From: Candidatus Wolfebacteria bacterium RIFCSPLOWO2_01_FULL_38_11
GTDB taxonomy: Bacteria > Patescibacteriota > Minisyncoccia > UBA6257 > UBA9933
Direction of reading: 5' to 3'
Length of the DNA: 40,188 nt
NCBI GenBank assembly: GCA_001793825.1
Contig: MGIQ01000001.1
Location: 1-40,188, forward strand
The first letter of the stretch is position 1. The number at the start of each line of letters is the position of its first letter. The position numbers and the translations under genes were made by a program. The notes below the pieces were generated by a model, which was not told where the DNA came from, made no database searches, and was given only the letters and a program-made list of their open reading frames with translations. Below are positions 7,485-14,198 of this stretch, in pieces.

Positions 7485-8009
7485 ATGGAACTCAATATTC
7501 TTTCTTTATTATTAAAGGCAATTCGGGGATTTCATATTTTGGGAGCGCTTTTTGGCACTGGCGCAGCAACTTTGGAGGAAATTTTATATTTTAGGGACAT
7601 TCGTGACGGAAAAATAGACGAATGGGAAGCAAGACAATTAAGAATTACTTATAAAATAATGCGCTGGAGCATAATTACCTTGATTATTTCCGGCGTTGCC
7701 ATGGTTGCCATTTTGAGATTCAAATATTCGCCGGCGGTTTTATACGATCCGCGGCTCGTGGCAAAATATATTATTGTCGGCATTATGATTATTAATGCCG
7801 TTTTAATTCAATTTAAAAAAATTCCGATGTCAATAGCCAGTCCTCTGTCACTTACTTCGTGGTGGGCAGAATCGATTTTGGGCAGGTGGCGCGGATTAGA
7901 AGCTTCGCTTTATGTTATAATGATTGGGTATTTTATCGCAGTGGTTGTTGTCGGATTAATTTTGTATAATATTAAAAAATTGGCAATGAGACCGAAAAAT
8001 TTGCCATAA
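7485..8009 (+). CDS. Conserved integral membrane protein, unknown function
   Basis: 174 aa with about four hydrophobic helices; just upstream of the copper gene cluster. Confidence 0.7.
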   Translation: MELNILSLLLKAIRGFHILGALFGTGAATLEEILYFRDIRDGKIDEWEARQLRITYKIMRWSIITLIISGVAMVAILRFKYSPAVLYDPRLVAKYIIVGIMIINAVLIQFKKIPMSIASPLSLTSWWAESILGRWRGLEASLYVIMIGYFIAVVVVGLILYNIKKLAMRPKNLP

Positions 8010-8029: not shown

Positions 8030-10306
8030 ATGGATCAACCGTCTTTAAATTCCATCCCTAATCAAAATCCAACAGGGGAAACACAGGATAAAAATTGGCG
8101 TTTTCTATTTATAATTTTCGCAATTTTTCTTTTTACGATTTTTATTGCTGGCCTTTTTTGGATTTTTACCAAAAGCACGGCTTCGCCCATGGGTTTAGGG
8201 TGGTTTCTTTTTAGTTTTGCCGCCGGTCTTTCCATGATTGTTTTGCCCTGTACTCTCCCCTTAGCTTTTGTCATTGTTCCGCTTTCAATGGGCAAGGGGT
8301 ATGTTAAGGGTTTTATGGTGGCTTTGGCTTTTGGCCTGGGCGTTGCCATCACGCTTTCCACTTACGGCATATTAGCCGCCTTGCTTGGCAAAGCGTTTTT
8401 CGCATATGCTTCCGGAGGAGGAGAAATTATTAAAAATATTTTTTACGCCATTGCCGGCACCTTTGCCATTCTTTTTGCTTTAAGCGAGCTTAAGCTTATC
8501 AAGTTCCGTATTCCAAGTTATATGGGCGCGGCTCCGAAGTTTGTTGAACAAAAAAGCGATATTCTTAAAGCGCTTTTTTTAGGACTTTTTCTCGGCAATA
8601 TCGGAATTGGTTGTCCGCATCCGGCAACGCCGATTATTTTGGGACAAATTGGTTTGACTGCCGATGTTTTTTACGGCTGGCTTTTGTTTTTTGTTCACGC
8701 CATCGGCAGAATCATCCCTCTTCTGCTCCTTGCCATTTTGGGCATTCTAGGAGTCAACGCCACTCGTTCGCTTTTAAAACACAAAGAAAGCATTGCCAGA
8801 GCAACTGCTTGGGGTATGGTTTTTGTTGGCGCTTTTTTGTTCACGCTTGGATTTTTTAGCCACGATTGGTGGGTATATTCCGGCATGCACACTTTGCTTG
8901 AAGAAATAACCCAAGAAGAGCGGATGCTGGGTATTTTAAAAGGCAGATGGGAAAGCGCGGTTACTCATATCCACGGCATTCCGACCGGAACGGGATTTTT
9001 TGGCCTGCCTTTGTGGCTTGGTAATTGGGTATTTGTTTCAATGATGGTTTTGCCTTTGTGGGGATATTGGCTTTCTTTACGCAGAAAATTAAGCATTTTA
9101 GTTGAGCCGGAACAAGGCGTCTTAAAAAAAGAATTAAGATTAAAAAAATTCAAATATTCCATTTTAACGATTGTTTTTGCTTTAACTTTTATTTATATTT
9201 TGCCTCAGAGGTTTTTATCCCAGCAATTAGCGCATCAGCGCGAAGAAGCTGGCGATACGCATAAAATGGAGGCATTGGCCGTGGATGTTGGTGAAATCGG
9301 TAAGAGGGCCGATGATTTGCTTCAAACTATTTTCCGCAGAGAAAACGGAAAAGTAATAGTAGAATTAAAAACCGAGGAGATTGTTGCCGAGATTGCTCCG
9401 GGAGTCACTTATCAATATTGGACTTACAACGGCACTGTTCCCGGACCGTTTATTAAAGTTAAAGAAGGAGACACGATTGAAGTCCGGCTTACTCACATGG
9501 TCCATGATCATGCAAATATCGATCATTCTTTTAATATCAGCGCGTTTCCGATCAGTATCGCAAGTGCTGATGAAGATGGGCATAATACGGCTGCTTCCGA
9601 ACACGAAAAAGCCGGCCATGCCAAGCATTCTATTGACCTCCATGCCGTAGAAGGTCCCGGAGGAGGAGCGGTTTTGACGCAGACCGTAAGCGGTCAAACC
9701 ACGGCTTTTCAGTTTAAAGCTACGCGGCCGGGAATTTATGTCTATCATTGCGCCAGCCCTCATATTCCCACTCATGTTGCCAATGGAATGTACGGTTTGA
9801 TTTTGGTTGAGCCGAAAAATGGTTTGGCAAAAGTTGATAAAGAATTTTACGTGATGCAGGGAGAATTTTATACAAATGGAGTATTTGGAGAAAAGGGCCA
9901 TCAGGAATTCAGTTTGGAAAAAATGAAAAAAGAAGAGCCGGAATATTTTGTATTTAACGGCCGTGTTGGTTCGCTTTCCGGCACCCGGGCTTTGCGAGCC
10001 AAAGTCGGTGAAACCATCCGTCTTTATTTCGGAGTTGGTTCGCATATCGCTTCTAATTTTCATATTATCGGCGGTGTTTTGGACAAACTTTATCCTGAAG
10101 GCGACATTATTTCCGCGCCGCATCGCAATGTTCAAACAACAGTTGTGCCTCCAGGAGGCGCGATGATGGCGGAATTCAAATTGGAAGTTCCCGGCAAATA
10201 TTTATTGGTTGATCATAGCTTGTCGCGCGCCATTGACAAAGGAGCGATTGGAGAAATTATTGTCGAAGGAGAAGAAAATCCGGAAATTTTTAAAAAAATA
10301 GAATAA
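8030..10306 (+). CDS. nirK: Fusion: DsbD/CcdA-like thiol-disulfide transmembrane domain + NirK-type two-domain copper nitrite reductase
   Basis: N-terminal half: multi-TM with VLPC74TLP and GIGC195PHP cysteines in CcdA-like context. C-terminal half: HSIDLHAVEGPGGG, YHCASPHIPTHVANGMYG, FHIIGG and VDHSLSRAIDKGAIG match the NirK type-1/type-2 Cu and catalytic motifs. One uninterrupted 758-aa frame. Confidence 0.88.
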   Translation: MDQPSLNSIPNQNPTGETQDKNWRFLFIIFAIFLFTIFIAGLFWIFTKSTASPMGLGWFLFSFAAGLSMIVLPCTLPLAFVIVPLSMGKGYVKGFMVALAFGLGVAITLSTYGILAALLGKAFFAYASGGGEIIKNIFYAIAGTFAILFALSELKLIKFRIPSYMGAAPKFVEQKSDILKALFLGLFLGNIGIGCPHPATPIILGQIGLTADVFYGWLLFFVHAIGRIIPLLLLAILGILGVNATRSLLKHKESIARATAWGMVFVGAFLFTLGFFSHDWWVYSGMHTLLEEITQEERMLGILKGRWESAVTHIHGIPTGTGFFGLPLWLGNWVFVSMMVLPLWGYWLSLRRKLSILVEPEQGVLKKELRLKKFKYSILTIVFALTFIYILPQRFLSQQLAHQREEAGDTHKMEALAVDVGEIGKRADDLLQTIFRRENGKVIVELKTEEIVAEIAPGVTYQYWTYNGTVPGPFIKVKEGDTIEVRLTHMVHDHANIDHSFNISAFPISIASADEDGHNTAASEHEKAGHAKHSIDLHAVEGPGGGAVLTQTVSGQTTAFQFKATRPGIYVYHCASPHIPTHVANGMYGLILVEPKNGLAKVDKEFYVMQGEFYTNGVFGEKGHQEFSLEKMKKEEPEYFVFNGRVGSLSGTRALRAKVGETIRLYFGVGSHIASNFHIIGGVLDKLYPEGDIISAPHRNVQTTVVPPGGAMMAEFKLEVPGKYLLVDHSLSRAIDKGAIGEIIVEGEENPEIFKKIE

Positions 10307-10311
10307 TTCCT

Positions 10312-10590
10312 ATGGATAAAAAAATTTTTCTTGAAATTTTGTCGTCGCCGGGATGTTATCATTGCGCTGAATTTAAAAAATATTGGGAAAGCGTTAAAAA
10401 TCAGTTTGCCGACGTGGAAATGCGCGATATTGATTTAACTAGCGATAAAGGGCAGGAAATGGCTCAGAAATATATGATTTTTTCTTCGCCCGGCATTATA
10501 ATCAATGGAGAGCTATTTGCTACGGGCGGAGTCAATAAAGAAAAATTTGAAGCAAAATTAAAAGAATTGTCCGCACCTAAGCAAACATGA
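10312..10590 (+). CDS. Thioredoxin/glutaredoxin-like protein with CxxC
   Basis: LEILSSPGCYHCAEFKKYW...MRDIDLTSDKGQEMAQKYMIFSSPGIIINGELFATGGV. Confidence 0.85.
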   Translation: MDKKIFLEILSSPGCYHCAEFKKYWESVKNQFADVEMRDIDLTSDKGQEMAQKYMIFSSPGIIINGELFATGGVNKEKFEAKLKELSAPKQT

Positions 10591-10623: not shown

Positions 10624-11106
10624 ATGCTAAAAATATTTTCAACACTGATTTTTGCAATTTTATTATCAAGCGGTTTTGCATCCGCAGTTTCTGCTCATGG
10701 CGGCGAAGCGGATGGGCACAGCGGAACAATGATGAAAATGGATGATATGATGTCGGAAATGATGGGAGAAAATAAAGCAATCAATTGCGCGGCAATGGAC
10801 TCCGCTGAATTAATTGAAGAAGGAGAGGATTTGATGTCAAAAATGATGGCTGGCGATGAGGCAAAGCACGAGAGTATGGAAGAATCAATGGAAGAAATTG
10901 CTGGTATGGAATTTCATGATATGATGCATTTAATGATGGGGCGGGTGGCCAGCGGATGTCTTACTGATGAACAGCAAAAAGCCGTGGCATCAAAATTAAC
11001 AGTAGTTGCGCCGCAAAGAACCAATCAGACGCTGCCTCTTGTAACCGGTCTTGCAATAGGATTGATTGTTGGATTGGTCGGAATGTCGTTTTTCCGAAAA
11101 TCTTAA
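10624..11106 (+). CDS. Met/His-rich exported, C-terminally anchored protein; putative copper-binding
   Basis: Signal peptide, MMKMDDMMSEMMGEN...MMHLMMGR Met clusters, His residues, C-terminal TM LPLVTGLAIGLIVGLVGMSFF. Confidence 0.75.
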   Translation: MLKIFSTLIFAILLSSGFASAVSAHGGEADGHSGTMMKMDDMMSEMMGENKAINCAAMDSAELIEEGEDLMSKMMAGDEAKHESMEESMEEIAGMEFHDMMHLMMGRVASGCLTDEQQKAVASKLTVVAPQRTNQTLPLVTGLAIGLIVGLVGMSFFRKS

Positions 11107-11137: not shown

Positions 11138-11530
11138 TTAATCAACGACAATGAAGTGGCCGGTTTGTTCAAAATGCCCTTCACCGCAAGGGACCGAACA
11201 ATAAAAGACAAACTCGCCTTTCTTTGAAGCAACAAATTCAATAATAGTTTCCTGTTTTGGAAAGAGTCGCTTGTTGACGCCGAAGACCTCAATGGCAAAA
11301 CCATGGTCATAAGGATCGTCGTTATAAATTTTCAATCTGACAGTATCGCCGGCTTTAACAGTAATTAAAGTGGGATCCCATTTATTTTTGGCCGCTGTCA
11401 TATTTATTTCCACTACATTGCCGGTCGCTTTAATGGGGGCGACCTCCGGCGCCCGGAAATAAATTTGATAAACAACACCGCCGGAAATAAGAACCGCGGC
11501 AAAGATAATTATGATAATAAATTTATTCAT
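11138..11530 (-). CDS. Membrane-anchored cupredoxin with CuA-like (cytochrome oxidase subunit II-like) motif
   Basis: DHGFAIEVFGV...FYCSVPCGEGHFEQTGHFIVVD, i.e. upstream His and CxxxCGxxH; N-terminal TM. Confidence 0.85.
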   Translation of the reverse strand: MNKFIIIIIFAAVLISGGVVYQIYFRAPEVAPIKATGNVVEINMTAAKNKWDPTLITVKAGDTVRLKIYNDDPYDHGFAIEVFGVNKRLFPKQETIIEFVASKKGEFVFYCSVPCGEGHFEQTGHFIVVD

Positions 11531-11564: not shown

Positions 11565-13973
11565 ATGCAGGAAAGAAAAATTTTTAAAATCAGAGGTATG
11601 CATTGCGCGGCTTGCGCCAACCTCATTAATAAATTTTTGATTAAGCAAAAGGGTGTTTTGGAAGCCAACGCTAATTTCGGGTCGGAATCCTTAAACGTGT
11701 TTTACGACGATTCACTGATAAATCCCCAACAGATGGACGTCGTGCTCAAAAAACTTGGCTATGGTCTTATTTTATCAGAAGAAGAGGGTAAAAGCGAAGA
11801 ATTGGCAGAGGCCGAAAGACAAAAAGAAATTCAAGGTCTAAAAAAGAGGGCTATTGTCAGTTTCATTCTTGCTTCACCTATAATTTTTTATTATATGACC
11901 GTGCATATGTTTAATCTGCAGCATATTCACGCTTTTTGCGTCAGCGGCGGGGGACTAGTGGCGGGGCTTGCGAGCGGTTGTTCTGGCGGCTGGCTTTTGG
12001 ATTTTAATTGGATATTTTTTGCAATGACGACTCCTATTCAGCTCGGCGTTGGCTGGATTTTTTATCGCAATGCTTGGACGGCTATAAGAGTCGGTTCTGC
12101 TTCAATGGATGTTTTGGTTGTTTTAGGCACAAGCGCGGCTTATCTCATCTCGGTTTTCGGATTCATTTTTTCTGATTTTGAATTTTTACATAGATATTGG
12201 GGCGGTCTTGATCATCCTTTTTGGGAATCTTCAGCCGCTTTGGTTTCTTTTATTATCCTCGGGCGTTATTTTGAAGCGCGTTCCAAAGGACGGGTGACAT
12301 CTGCCATCAGAAAATTGATGAATTTGGCGCCGAAAATGGCAGTCATTGTCAATGACGGCAAAGAAATGGAAATTCCCATAAGTGAACTTAAAATCGGCGA
12401 TGTTTTTCTGGTAAAACCGGGCGCTAATGTACCGACTGATGGCGTTATTTTGGAAGGAAAATCTTCAATTGACGAAAAAGTGGTAACTGGCGAATCAATG
12501 CCTGTTGGAAAAGATGTCGGCGACGAAGTCATCGGCGCTACTACTAACACTTACGGTCTGCTAAAATGCCGTGCAAACAAAGTTGGCCGAGACACCTTGC
12601 TTTTCCAGATTATTAAAATGGTGCGCGAGGCGCAATCTTCAAAAGCCAGTATCCAAGATGTCGCCGATAGAGTTTCGGAAAAATTTGTGCCTGCCGTGGT
12701 TGTTTTTGCGTTTTTGGTTTTTGCTCTTTGGTATTTTGTGCTTGGTTATCCAGTTGTTTCTTCCTTGCTTTTCATGATTGCCGTACTGGTTATTTCTTGT
12801 CCCTGCGCTTTGGGTTTGGCAACGCCGACCGCTTTGATGGTTGGCACGGCCAGAGGGGCGCAATCGGGAATTTTAATCAAAGGCGGCAAAGCGCTTGAAG
12901 GCGCTTATAAGATAAACAGCGTCGCCTTTGACAAAACCGGCACTTTGACAAAAGGCGAGCCGTCGGTAACCGATGTTATTGCAGTAGCCGATCTTTCAAA
13001 AGAAGAAGTTATAAAAATCGCCGCTATTGCCGAACGCGGCTCGGAACATCCTTTAGCTCAAGCTATTGTTAAAGCCGCTGGCAAGGTTCCGGAGCCGAAA
13101 AATTTTTCCGCTTTGGCCGGACGCGGCATCAAAGCCGACTACAATAAAAAAACGATTTTAGTCGGCAATGAACAATTAATGCTGGAAAATAAGATTGACA
13201 TCTCTCCTTATCAAAAAGATTTTGAATCTCTTCAGAATCAGGCAAAGACCGTGGTTTTTGTCTCTTATGGCGCTAAGATGATCGGTATTTTGGCTTTAGC
13301 CGATACTTTAAAGGATTATGCCAAAGAGGCAATTGCCGAATTGAAGAAAATGAAGAAGGAGGTCATTATGATTACCGGAGATAATGAAAAAACCGCCAAA
13401 GCCATTGCTCAGAATCTCGGCATCGATACTTTTTATGCCAAGGTTTTGCCGGAAAAAAAGGAAGAATTGATTTCAAATATTCAGAAAAAAGGCAAAGTTG
13501 TGGCAATGGTTGGCGACGGCATCAATGACGCGCCGGCTTTAGCTAAAGCTGATTTGGGTATTGCCGTTGGTTCCGGCACTGATGTTGCCATTGAAACCGG
13601 AGATATCATTCTTATTAAAGACGACATCCGCGACGTGGTAACAGCCATTGATTTGTCAAAGAGAACTATTCGCAAAATTTGGGAGAATTTCTTCTGGGCT
13701 TTTATATACAATATTGTCGCCATTCCAATAGCCGCCGGCATTCATTTATTTATTACTCAAACAGCCGGCGATCCGGCGCCTTGGGTGGTTACAGGGGCGG
13801 CTTTTTTAGGAGGAATTGCCGGTAAAGTATTTTTGAATCTCTCTCAATCTTCGCTCAGGCCGGAAATCGCCGGCTTTGCCATGGCGTTTTCCTCCGTATC
13901 AGTGGTGATGAATTCTCTTTTGCTTAACCGTTATAAAGAACCAAAATTTGCGCGACAGACAAAAGATAAGTAA
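11565..13973 (+). CDS. copA: Copper-translocating P1B-type ATPase with N-terminal HMA domain
   Basis: GMHCAACAN; TGE; CPCALGLATP; DKTGTLT; SEHPLA; GDGINDAPAL; YN and MxxSS TM signatures. Confidence 0.96.
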   Translation: MQERKIFKIRGMHCAACANLINKFLIKQKGVLEANANFGSESLNVFYDDSLINPQQMDVVLKKLGYGLILSEEEGKSEELAEAERQKEIQGLKKRAIVSFILASPIIFYYMTVHMFNLQHIHAFCVSGGGLVAGLASGCSGGWLLDFNWIFFAMTTPIQLGVGWIFYRNAWTAIRVGSASMDVLVVLGTSAAYLISVFGFIFSDFEFLHRYWGGLDHPFWESSAALVSFIILGRYFEARSKGRVTSAIRKLMNLAPKMAVIVNDGKEMEIPISELKIGDVFLVKPGANVPTDGVILEGKSSIDEKVVTGESMPVGKDVGDEVIGATTNTYGLLKCRANKVGRDTLLFQIIKMVREAQSSKASIQDVADRVSEKFVPAVVVFAFLVFALWYFVLGYPVVSSLLFMIAVLVISCPCALGLATPTALMVGTARGAQSGILIKGGKALEGAYKINSVAFDKTGTLTKGEPSVTDVIAVADLSKEEVIKIAAIAERGSEHPLAQAIVKAAGKVPEPKNFSALAGRGIKADYNKKTILVGNEQLMLENKIDISPYQKDFESLQNQAKTVVFVSYGAKMIGILALADTLKDYAKEAIAELKKMKKEVIMITGDNEKTAKAIAQNLGIDTFYAKVLPEKKEELISNIQKKGKVVAMVGDGINDAPALAKADLGIAVGSGTDVAIETGDIILIKDDIRDVVTAIDLSKRTIRKIWENFFWAFIYNIVAIPIAAGIHLFITQTAGDPAPWVVTGAAFLGGIAGKVFLNLSQSSLRPEIAGFAMAFSSVSVVMNSLLLNRYKEPKFARQTKDK

Positions 13974-13982
13974 AATAATACA

Positions 13983-14198
13983 ATGATTAAGAAAAATTAT
14001 AACATTGAAGGCATGCATTGCGGCGCTTGCTCTACCGGCATCGAAATGTTTCTTTCAAACACCGAAGGCGTTAAATCAGCCAAGGTCAGCTATGAATCCA
14101 AGAAAGCCGAAGTTGAATATGACGAAAGCAGACTTAAAGATGGAGATATAATAAAAACCATCGAAGAAGCCGGTTTTAAAGCGTCTCCGGTTGCCTGA
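13983..14198 (+). CDS. copZ: Heavy-metal-associated domain protein, CopZ-like copper chaperone
   Basis: 71 aa, NIEGMHCGACSTGIEMFL. Confidence 0.9.
   Translation: MIKKNYNIEGMHCGACSTGIEMFLSNTEGVKSAKVSYESKKAEVEYDESRLKDGDIIKTIEEAGFKASPVA

Follow-up and report, generated by a model that had tools for sequence, protein, structure and literature searches.

The best PDB matches to the nitrite reductase considered here are AniA (1kbv) and PhNIR (2zoo), representing AniA-type and class II copper nitrite reductases (NirK), which are soluble or lipid-anchored. In the three-domain NirKs of Ralstonia pickettii and Hyphomicrobium, the core is joined within one chain to a redox-related domain, namely, an electron donor of the cytochrome c or cupredoxin type. 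Uncultured Chloroflexi also encode nitrite reductases with uncommon domain fusions, as cupredoxin-C1-NirK and C1-C2-NirS proteins, the former of which was flagged by the authors as a possible artefact (PMC8756737). In CPR/Patescibacteria, NirK has been found in 4 Parcubacteria bins (PMC5581439) and in more than 140 MAGs from more than 50 lineages (PMC12931201), with conserved copper sites. These counts, as given in the sections of the 2 papers drawn on here, contradict the preliminary description of the locus presented below, in which NirK was called rare in CPR. The same description attributed NirK to 'Ca. Parcunitrobacter nitroensis', but the corresponding report describes an NO reductase and a putative HAO, and its main text mentions neither nitrite nor NirK (PMC5220378). 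How electrons reach CPR NirK, and the reason for its retention in ultra-small bacteria that do not respire, are acknowledged questions in the same sections (PMC5581439, PMC12931201), which do not mention fusion of NirK to a membrane module; the rule of 50% coverage for both query and subject stated in the latter study could miss fused NirKs.

On the membrane side, DsbD, CcdA and ScsB share the PF02683 domain with 2 cysteines located at helix breaks. ScsB, a relative of DsbD, is linked to copper, with reported Cu(I) binding (PMC8900818). YcnJ of Bacillus subtilis is a CopC-CopD-YtkA protein, in which a YtkA domain carried on a copper-transport membrane domain helps CuA assembly (PMC13344008).

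Here, we analyzed a stretch of 40,188 nucleotides (hereafter, the window) from the genome of the uncultured, ultra-small Candidatus Wolfebacteria bacterium RIFCSPLOWO2_01_FULL_38_11, in which a DsbD/CcdA-like membrane module and NirK are encoded in one frame, and compared it with related loci across Patescibacteria. By joining NirK to a DsbD-like module, CopA or DsbB with a cupredoxin, the fusions reported below provide specific candidate partners, rendering the question of electron supply and retention testable, and may show how NirK obtains copper or electrons. Literature searches outside subscription journals and preprints yielded no earlier account of NirK fused to DsbD, CopA or DsbB.

Architecture of the fusion protein

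The open reading frame (ORF) 8030-10306 is uninterrupted across 758 aa. It had been read as a single ORF combining a DsbD/CcdA-like module with NirK, and the profile searches proposed at that time bear this out, with both halves exceeding the cut-offs: PF02683 (DsbD_TM) matches residues 61-236 with 35.9 bits (gathering cut-off 27.1), and TIGR02376 (copper nitrite reductase) matches with 318.5 bits (curated cut-off 296.3). The source genome (540 kb, 96% complete) contains 1 DsbD_TM match and 1 Cu-oxidase place, both within this ORF. An antisense ORF (9365-10135, − strand), contained in the sequence coding for NirK, was regarded as spurious. The features of the fusion are the following:

8030..10306, + strand: DsbD/CcdA-like membrane module plus NirK, 758 aa, single frame (ORF, PF02683, TIGR02376)
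8030..9229, + strand: membrane half, residues 1-400, nine predicted helices (PF02683, alignment, model, loop charges)
8249..8251, + strand: Cys74 in the first helix break, LPCTLP, invariant in 39/39 homologues
8612..8614, + strand: Cys195 in the second helix break, GIGCPHP, invariant in 39/39 homologues
8861..9010, + strand: helix end and outer loop, residues 278-327 (invariant residues; topology from model and loop charges)
9230..9319, + strand: linker between the last helix and NirK (alignments; model pLDDT <50 for residues 410-427)
9320..10297, + strand: NirK domain, residues 431-756 (TIGR02376, 318.5 bits; AniA alignment)
9494..9625, + strand: 44-residue His/acidic-rich insert just N-terminal to the type-1 ligand His533 (NirK comparison)

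Alignment with AniA assigned the type-1 copper ligands to H533, C574, H582 and M587, the type-2 ligands to H538, H573 and H729, and the catalytic residues to D536 and H678, in agreement with all the motifs previously picked out by eye. Judging from the sequence, the NirK half is thus apparently complete, with type-1, type-2 and catalytic residues all kept. While sharing the core and all copper and catalytic residues with AniA-type and class II enzymes such as AniA and PhNIR, the fusion differs from them in having both the nine-helix module and the His/acidic-rich insert. The latter is common to one clade of CPR NirKs, fused or unfused (29-65 residues where measured), and neither AniA nor the other main type of CPR NirK has it. 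The fusion NirK shares approximately 70% identity with its nearest unfused relatives, and membrane anchors are already present in unfused relatives. As in the three-domain NirKs, the core and a redox-related domain are found in one chain; however, the additional domain is a DsbD/CcdA-like membrane module rather than an electron donor, and Pfam and curated profile searches revealed neither a cytochrome c nor a cupredoxin donor fused within the 758-aa chain. The fusion partners in Chloroflexi are soluble electron carriers, without DsbD, CopA or DsbB domains.

In the full-length AlphaFold model (monomer, mean pLDDT 73.8), the helices are clear, with approximately nine of them ahead of NirK, and the helix breaks at residues 71-76 and 193-199 coincide with C74 and C195. 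The NirK part, which in copper nitrite reductases forms homotrimers with the type-2 site at the subunit interface, was modeled with moderate-to-low confidence, insufficient for copper-site geometry, and a PDB fold search with the model matched the C-terminal half to nitrite reductases. Based on loop charges (positive-inside rule), the C-terminus of the membrane half is predicted to be outside, and NirK is therefore predicted to be located outside the membrane. The only cysteines in the whole fusion are C74, C195 and the type-1 copper ligand C574. Consequently, the fusion contains no extracytoplasmic cysteine pair which could serve as a thiol acceptor, C574 being the single cysteine of the NirK half.

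The membrane module and its family

By its sequence relationships, the membrane half belongs to a family that occurs in copper loci of Patescibacteria and is homologous to the transmembrane half of DsbD-YtkA and DsbD-multicopper oxidase proteins, the closest relative being from Azambacteria (73%). The presence of cysteines in CcdA-like positions, pointed out earlier, was confirmed for C74 and C195. Besides these, His278 and His287 are invariant among the 39 aligned family members, as are His313 and His315 in the 38 members having a residue at these positions; Glu291 and Glu296, likewise within residues 278-327, are invariant in the family as well. The module resembles DsbD, CcdA and ScsB in the PF02683 domain and the 2 cysteines at helix breaks but differs in lacking an alpha or gamma thioredoxin-type domain (no thioredoxin-type gamma domain was found by Pfam search within the 758-aa chain), in bearing an ectodomain without a thiol acceptor, and in having approximately three extra helices. 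The score against PRK00293 (DsbD subfamily), 21.9 bits versus a cut-off of 330, places the module outside DsbD/ScsB proper.

We surveyed 43 loci of the family, including 42 from a GTDB-wide scan and that of the second DsbD-NirK fusion described below. Genes for CopA and HMA proteins were each found near the module in 37 of the 43 loci, those for a CuA-like cupredoxin in 36 and those for a thioredoxin-like protein in 35, with several loci without partner genes ending at contig ends. The usual ectodomain, either fused or adjoining, is a His-rich tandem YtkA-like domain with conserved HxH motifs, which is devoid of cysteines in all but one case. YtkA was recognized by Pfam in 3 of 13 ectodomains, and a fold search with the YtkA-like ectodomain yielded generic Ig-like matches only (all TM-scores <0.32). 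Alignments show that the ectodomains are exchanged immediately past the last helix, and it is at this site, corresponding to the linker 9230..9319 of the window, that the usual YtkA-like ectodomain is swapped out. Replacements include a multicopper oxidase in 2 Azambacteria and NirK in 2 members, and several members carry no ectodomain; all assignable ectodomains of the family are copper-enzyme or YtkA-like domains. YcnJ resembles the usual form of the family in having a membrane domain followed by a C-terminal YtkA, but its membrane domain is CopD rather than DsbD-like, and it has no NirK. The 2 Azambacteria fusions of the module to multicopper oxidase are located at L055:5926-8238 and L056:4587-6872, with L055 containing a masked stretch (X).

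Gene neighborhood in the window

The fusion gene is surrounded by the following genes:

7485..8009, + strand: 174-aa membrane protein, distant DUF2214 (profile match)
10312..10590, + strand: 92-aa thioredoxin/glutaredoxin-like protein with a CYHC motif (profile matches; homologue in 35/43 family loci)
10624..11106, + strand: 160-aa protein rich in Met, His and acidic residues, apparent signal peptide (homologue comparison)
11138..11530, − strand: membrane-anchored CuA-like cupredoxin, CSVPCGEGH (profile matches)
11565..13973, + strand: CopA-type copper P-type ATPase (TIGR01511, 578.4 bits)
13983..14198, + strand: CopZ-like HMA copper chaperone, 71 aa (PF00403, 60.5 bits)

The upstream 174-aa protein is 45% identical to the product of the gene located two downstream of unfused NirK in a genome of the same order (G022), and the 160-aa protein, a possible copper-binding protein without a Pfam match, is 49% identical to that of a gene from an Azambacteria DsbD-multicopper oxidase locus. 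Thus, the window locus combines elements of NirK loci and of copper loci. The copper locus looks horizontally exchanged, with the membrane half being nearest to Azambacteria homologues. The thioredoxin-like gene starts 5 bp downstream of the fusion, and the CuA-like cupredoxin is the only match in the genome to the profile of such cupredoxins. In the window cupredoxin, the axial position usually taken by Met is occupied by Gln. The CuA-like cupredoxin of other loci has an 8-residue insert followed by an HFDM motif. Genome-wide searches yielded no match to the COX1/NOR family, and thus neither haem-copper oxidase nor NO reductase, and no c-type cytochrome is evident in the genome.

Integrity and origin of the fusion

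Among the 246 genomes of the order, the DsbD-NirK fusion was found in the window genome only; in 2 others (G022 and G025), the 2 halves are encoded as separate genes on different contigs. However, a class-wide sample of 392 genomes yielded a second full DsbD-NirK fusion (G246; 726 aa), which is 60% identical over residues 9-756, comes from another family and is flanked by CopA and HMA/CopZ genes. The invariant cysteines and outer histidines of the module are retained in both fusions. That 2 genes have been wrongly joined during assembly might be suspected given that the source is a metagenome-assembled genome and that the halves are on different contigs in G022 and G025, but we consider this highly improbable because a second, independent full-length fusion is known, the join sits at a domain boundary shared with other members of the family and the genome contains no second copy of either half. 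Furthermore, the same contig carries a family-typical gene, and composition along the locus is not aberrant. Misbinning of the contig was also rejected, since its 861-aa gene is 67-80% identical to counterparts in 14 genomes of the same family.

The DsbD-NirK fusion may have originated once or twice. In the membrane-half tree, forcing the 2 fusions together costs approximately 10 log units, with AU p-values of 0.22 when all rows are included and 0.03 when distant rows are removed. The corresponding p-value in the NirK tree is 0.38, and in a larger NirK tree the fusions were joined in 0 of 200 bootstrap trees.

Other NirK fusions and loci in Patescibacteria

Approximately 46 of the searched genomes encode NirK of the window type, and in 7 to 8 of them it is fused to a membrane protein. 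Judging by the predicted proteins, DsbD-NirK is not a unique case: besides the second example, the phylum includes CopA-NirK and DsbB-NirK-cupredoxin fusions. The former, consisting of HMA, copper P-type ATPase and NirK domains, were discovered through a phylum sample which included G881 (1321-aa frame), after which its order and class were searched, and are present in four genera of another Patescibacteria class. The frames are the following:

L190:3168-7100, L198:3646-6963, L199:3080-6553 and L200:1124-4948: CopA-NirK, 1105-1310 aa
L201:4913-6973: DsbB-NirK-cupredoxin, 686 aa, from G1006 (profile matches)

NirKs fused to CopA group in a single clade (100/98). The chain in L198 matches TIGR02376 with 304.6 bits. 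A gene encoding an HMA-DsbD_2-cupredoxin protein is located close to CopA-NirK in at least 2 genera (G881 and G992). In G1006, the DsbB part matches PF02600 with 42.8 bits, NirK reaches 296.1 bits versus the cut-off of 296.3, and the cupredoxin is amicyanin-like; a partial NirK end of this kind is present in G1001 (L202). This architecture might tie nitrite reduction to thiol/quinone redox. In Ryanbacteria, unfused NirK is encoded within 3 kb of DsbD-like, YtkA-like and cupredoxin genes (L129:6483-12952), a possible intermediate arrangement. The majority of the unfused NirK loci examined are without the copper locus of the membrane-module family. In G268, a gene for an NDH-2-like flavoprotein (L128:6017-7261) directly adjoins unfused NirK.

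Possible roles of the fusion

We give about an even chance to the explanation that NirK is docked on a membrane module whose locus serves extracytoplasmic copper metallation, and is metallated where copper emerges. In the usual form of such a locus, copper would arrive via CopZ and CopA and would be kept as Cu(I) by cytosolic thiol electrons, supplied by the thioredoxin-like protein, and/or by the Cys/His sites of the module. The module would also keep the cysteines of the CuA-like cupredoxin reduced, and the attached YtkA-like domain would pass copper to clients. In the window form, a client enzyme, NirK, would replace the YtkA-like domain, being loaded at the membrane exit of copper and sitting beside the CuA-like cupredoxin, its presumed electron donor.

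That the membrane half may bind or transfer copper is suggested by the locus, the partner exchange and the invariant Cys and His residues. Tethered metallation is further consistent with the copper-gene neighborhoods of the family (43 loci), the swapping of copper-enzyme and YtkA-like ectodomains at one boundary, the CopA-NirK chains and the position of the G246 fusion between CopA and HMA genes, the proximity of unfused NirK to a copper locus in Ryanbacteria, and the invariance of C74/C195 and H278/H287/H313/H315 combined with the near absence of ectodomain cysteines; YcnJ and ScsB would offer precedents by analogy. Ectodomains devoid of cysteines are unable to take up electrons as in classical DsbD, making a copper role likelier than a thiol relay into them. 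Accordingly, of the coupling proposed in the preliminary description, "coupled cofactor maturation" stands as one reading, whereas electron delivery by a thiol relay into NirK, which has no acceptor cysteine, is poorly supported. Several observations nevertheless run against tethered metallation: Pfam recognizes YtkA in 3 of 13 ectodomains only, the fold search with that ectodomain gave nothing beyond generic Ig-like matches, the DsbB-NirK-cupredoxin chain fits thiol/quinone redox better than copper supply, and NirK does not need the tether, given that most unfused NirK loci examined are without the copper locus.

The module might instead deliver electrons: reducing equivalents of the cytosolic thioredoxin-like protein would cross the membrane through C74/C195 and reach the NirK type-1 copper, either directly or via the CuA-like cupredoxin, allowing nitrite reduction free of cytochromes and quinol oxidase. 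This appears unlikely but is a serious rival, considering that the genome has no COX1/NOR match and no evident cytochrome c and that a DsbB-NirK-cupredoxin chain exists in G1006. The thioredoxin-like gene, 5 bp downstream of the fusion in the window and near 35 of the 43 family members, as well as the invariance of C74/C195, would fit such a route, and the sections drawn on here acknowledge the route of electrons to CPR NirK as a gap (PMC5581439, PMC12931201). However, the sole cysteine of the NirK ectodomain is a copper ligand, so that there is no thiol acceptor, and the CopA-NirK fusions would be left unexplained. In addition, the module more often bears YtkA-like domains, which, to our knowledge, are not redox enzymes, and DsbB normally passes electrons from thiols to quinone.

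Less probable still is copper detoxification, whereby NirK would oxidize Cu(I) exported by the locus with nitrite, Cu(I) being the electron donor, as the anaerobic equivalent of cuprous oxidases of the CueO type. The CopA-NirK fusions in four genera, the occupation of the NirK slot by multicopper oxidase in 2 Azambacteria and the lack of a respiratory partner in searches of the genome for COX1/NOR and c-type cytochromes point in this direction, but copper-resistance genes are missing from most unfused NirK loci examined, and we know of no report of physiological Cu(I) oxidation by NirK. We are just as doubtful that NirK of Patescibacteria is an enzyme of copper homeostasis rather than denitrification, with Cu(I) as both cofactor source and electron donor and nitrite as the oxidant; if so, the DsbD-like and CopA fusions and the exchange between NirK and multicopper oxidase would be traces of a cuprous-oxidase role. 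Finally, neighboring genes could have been joined without any functional coupling, the DsbD-like part serving as an anchor only. Although the anchors already present on unfused relatives indicate that an anchor is tolerated, such a neutral fusion is improbable: in lineages distant from each other, the partners seen are membrane proteins of copper handling or thiol redox, and neither the cysteines nor the outer histidines of the module vary in its 2 fusions to NirK.
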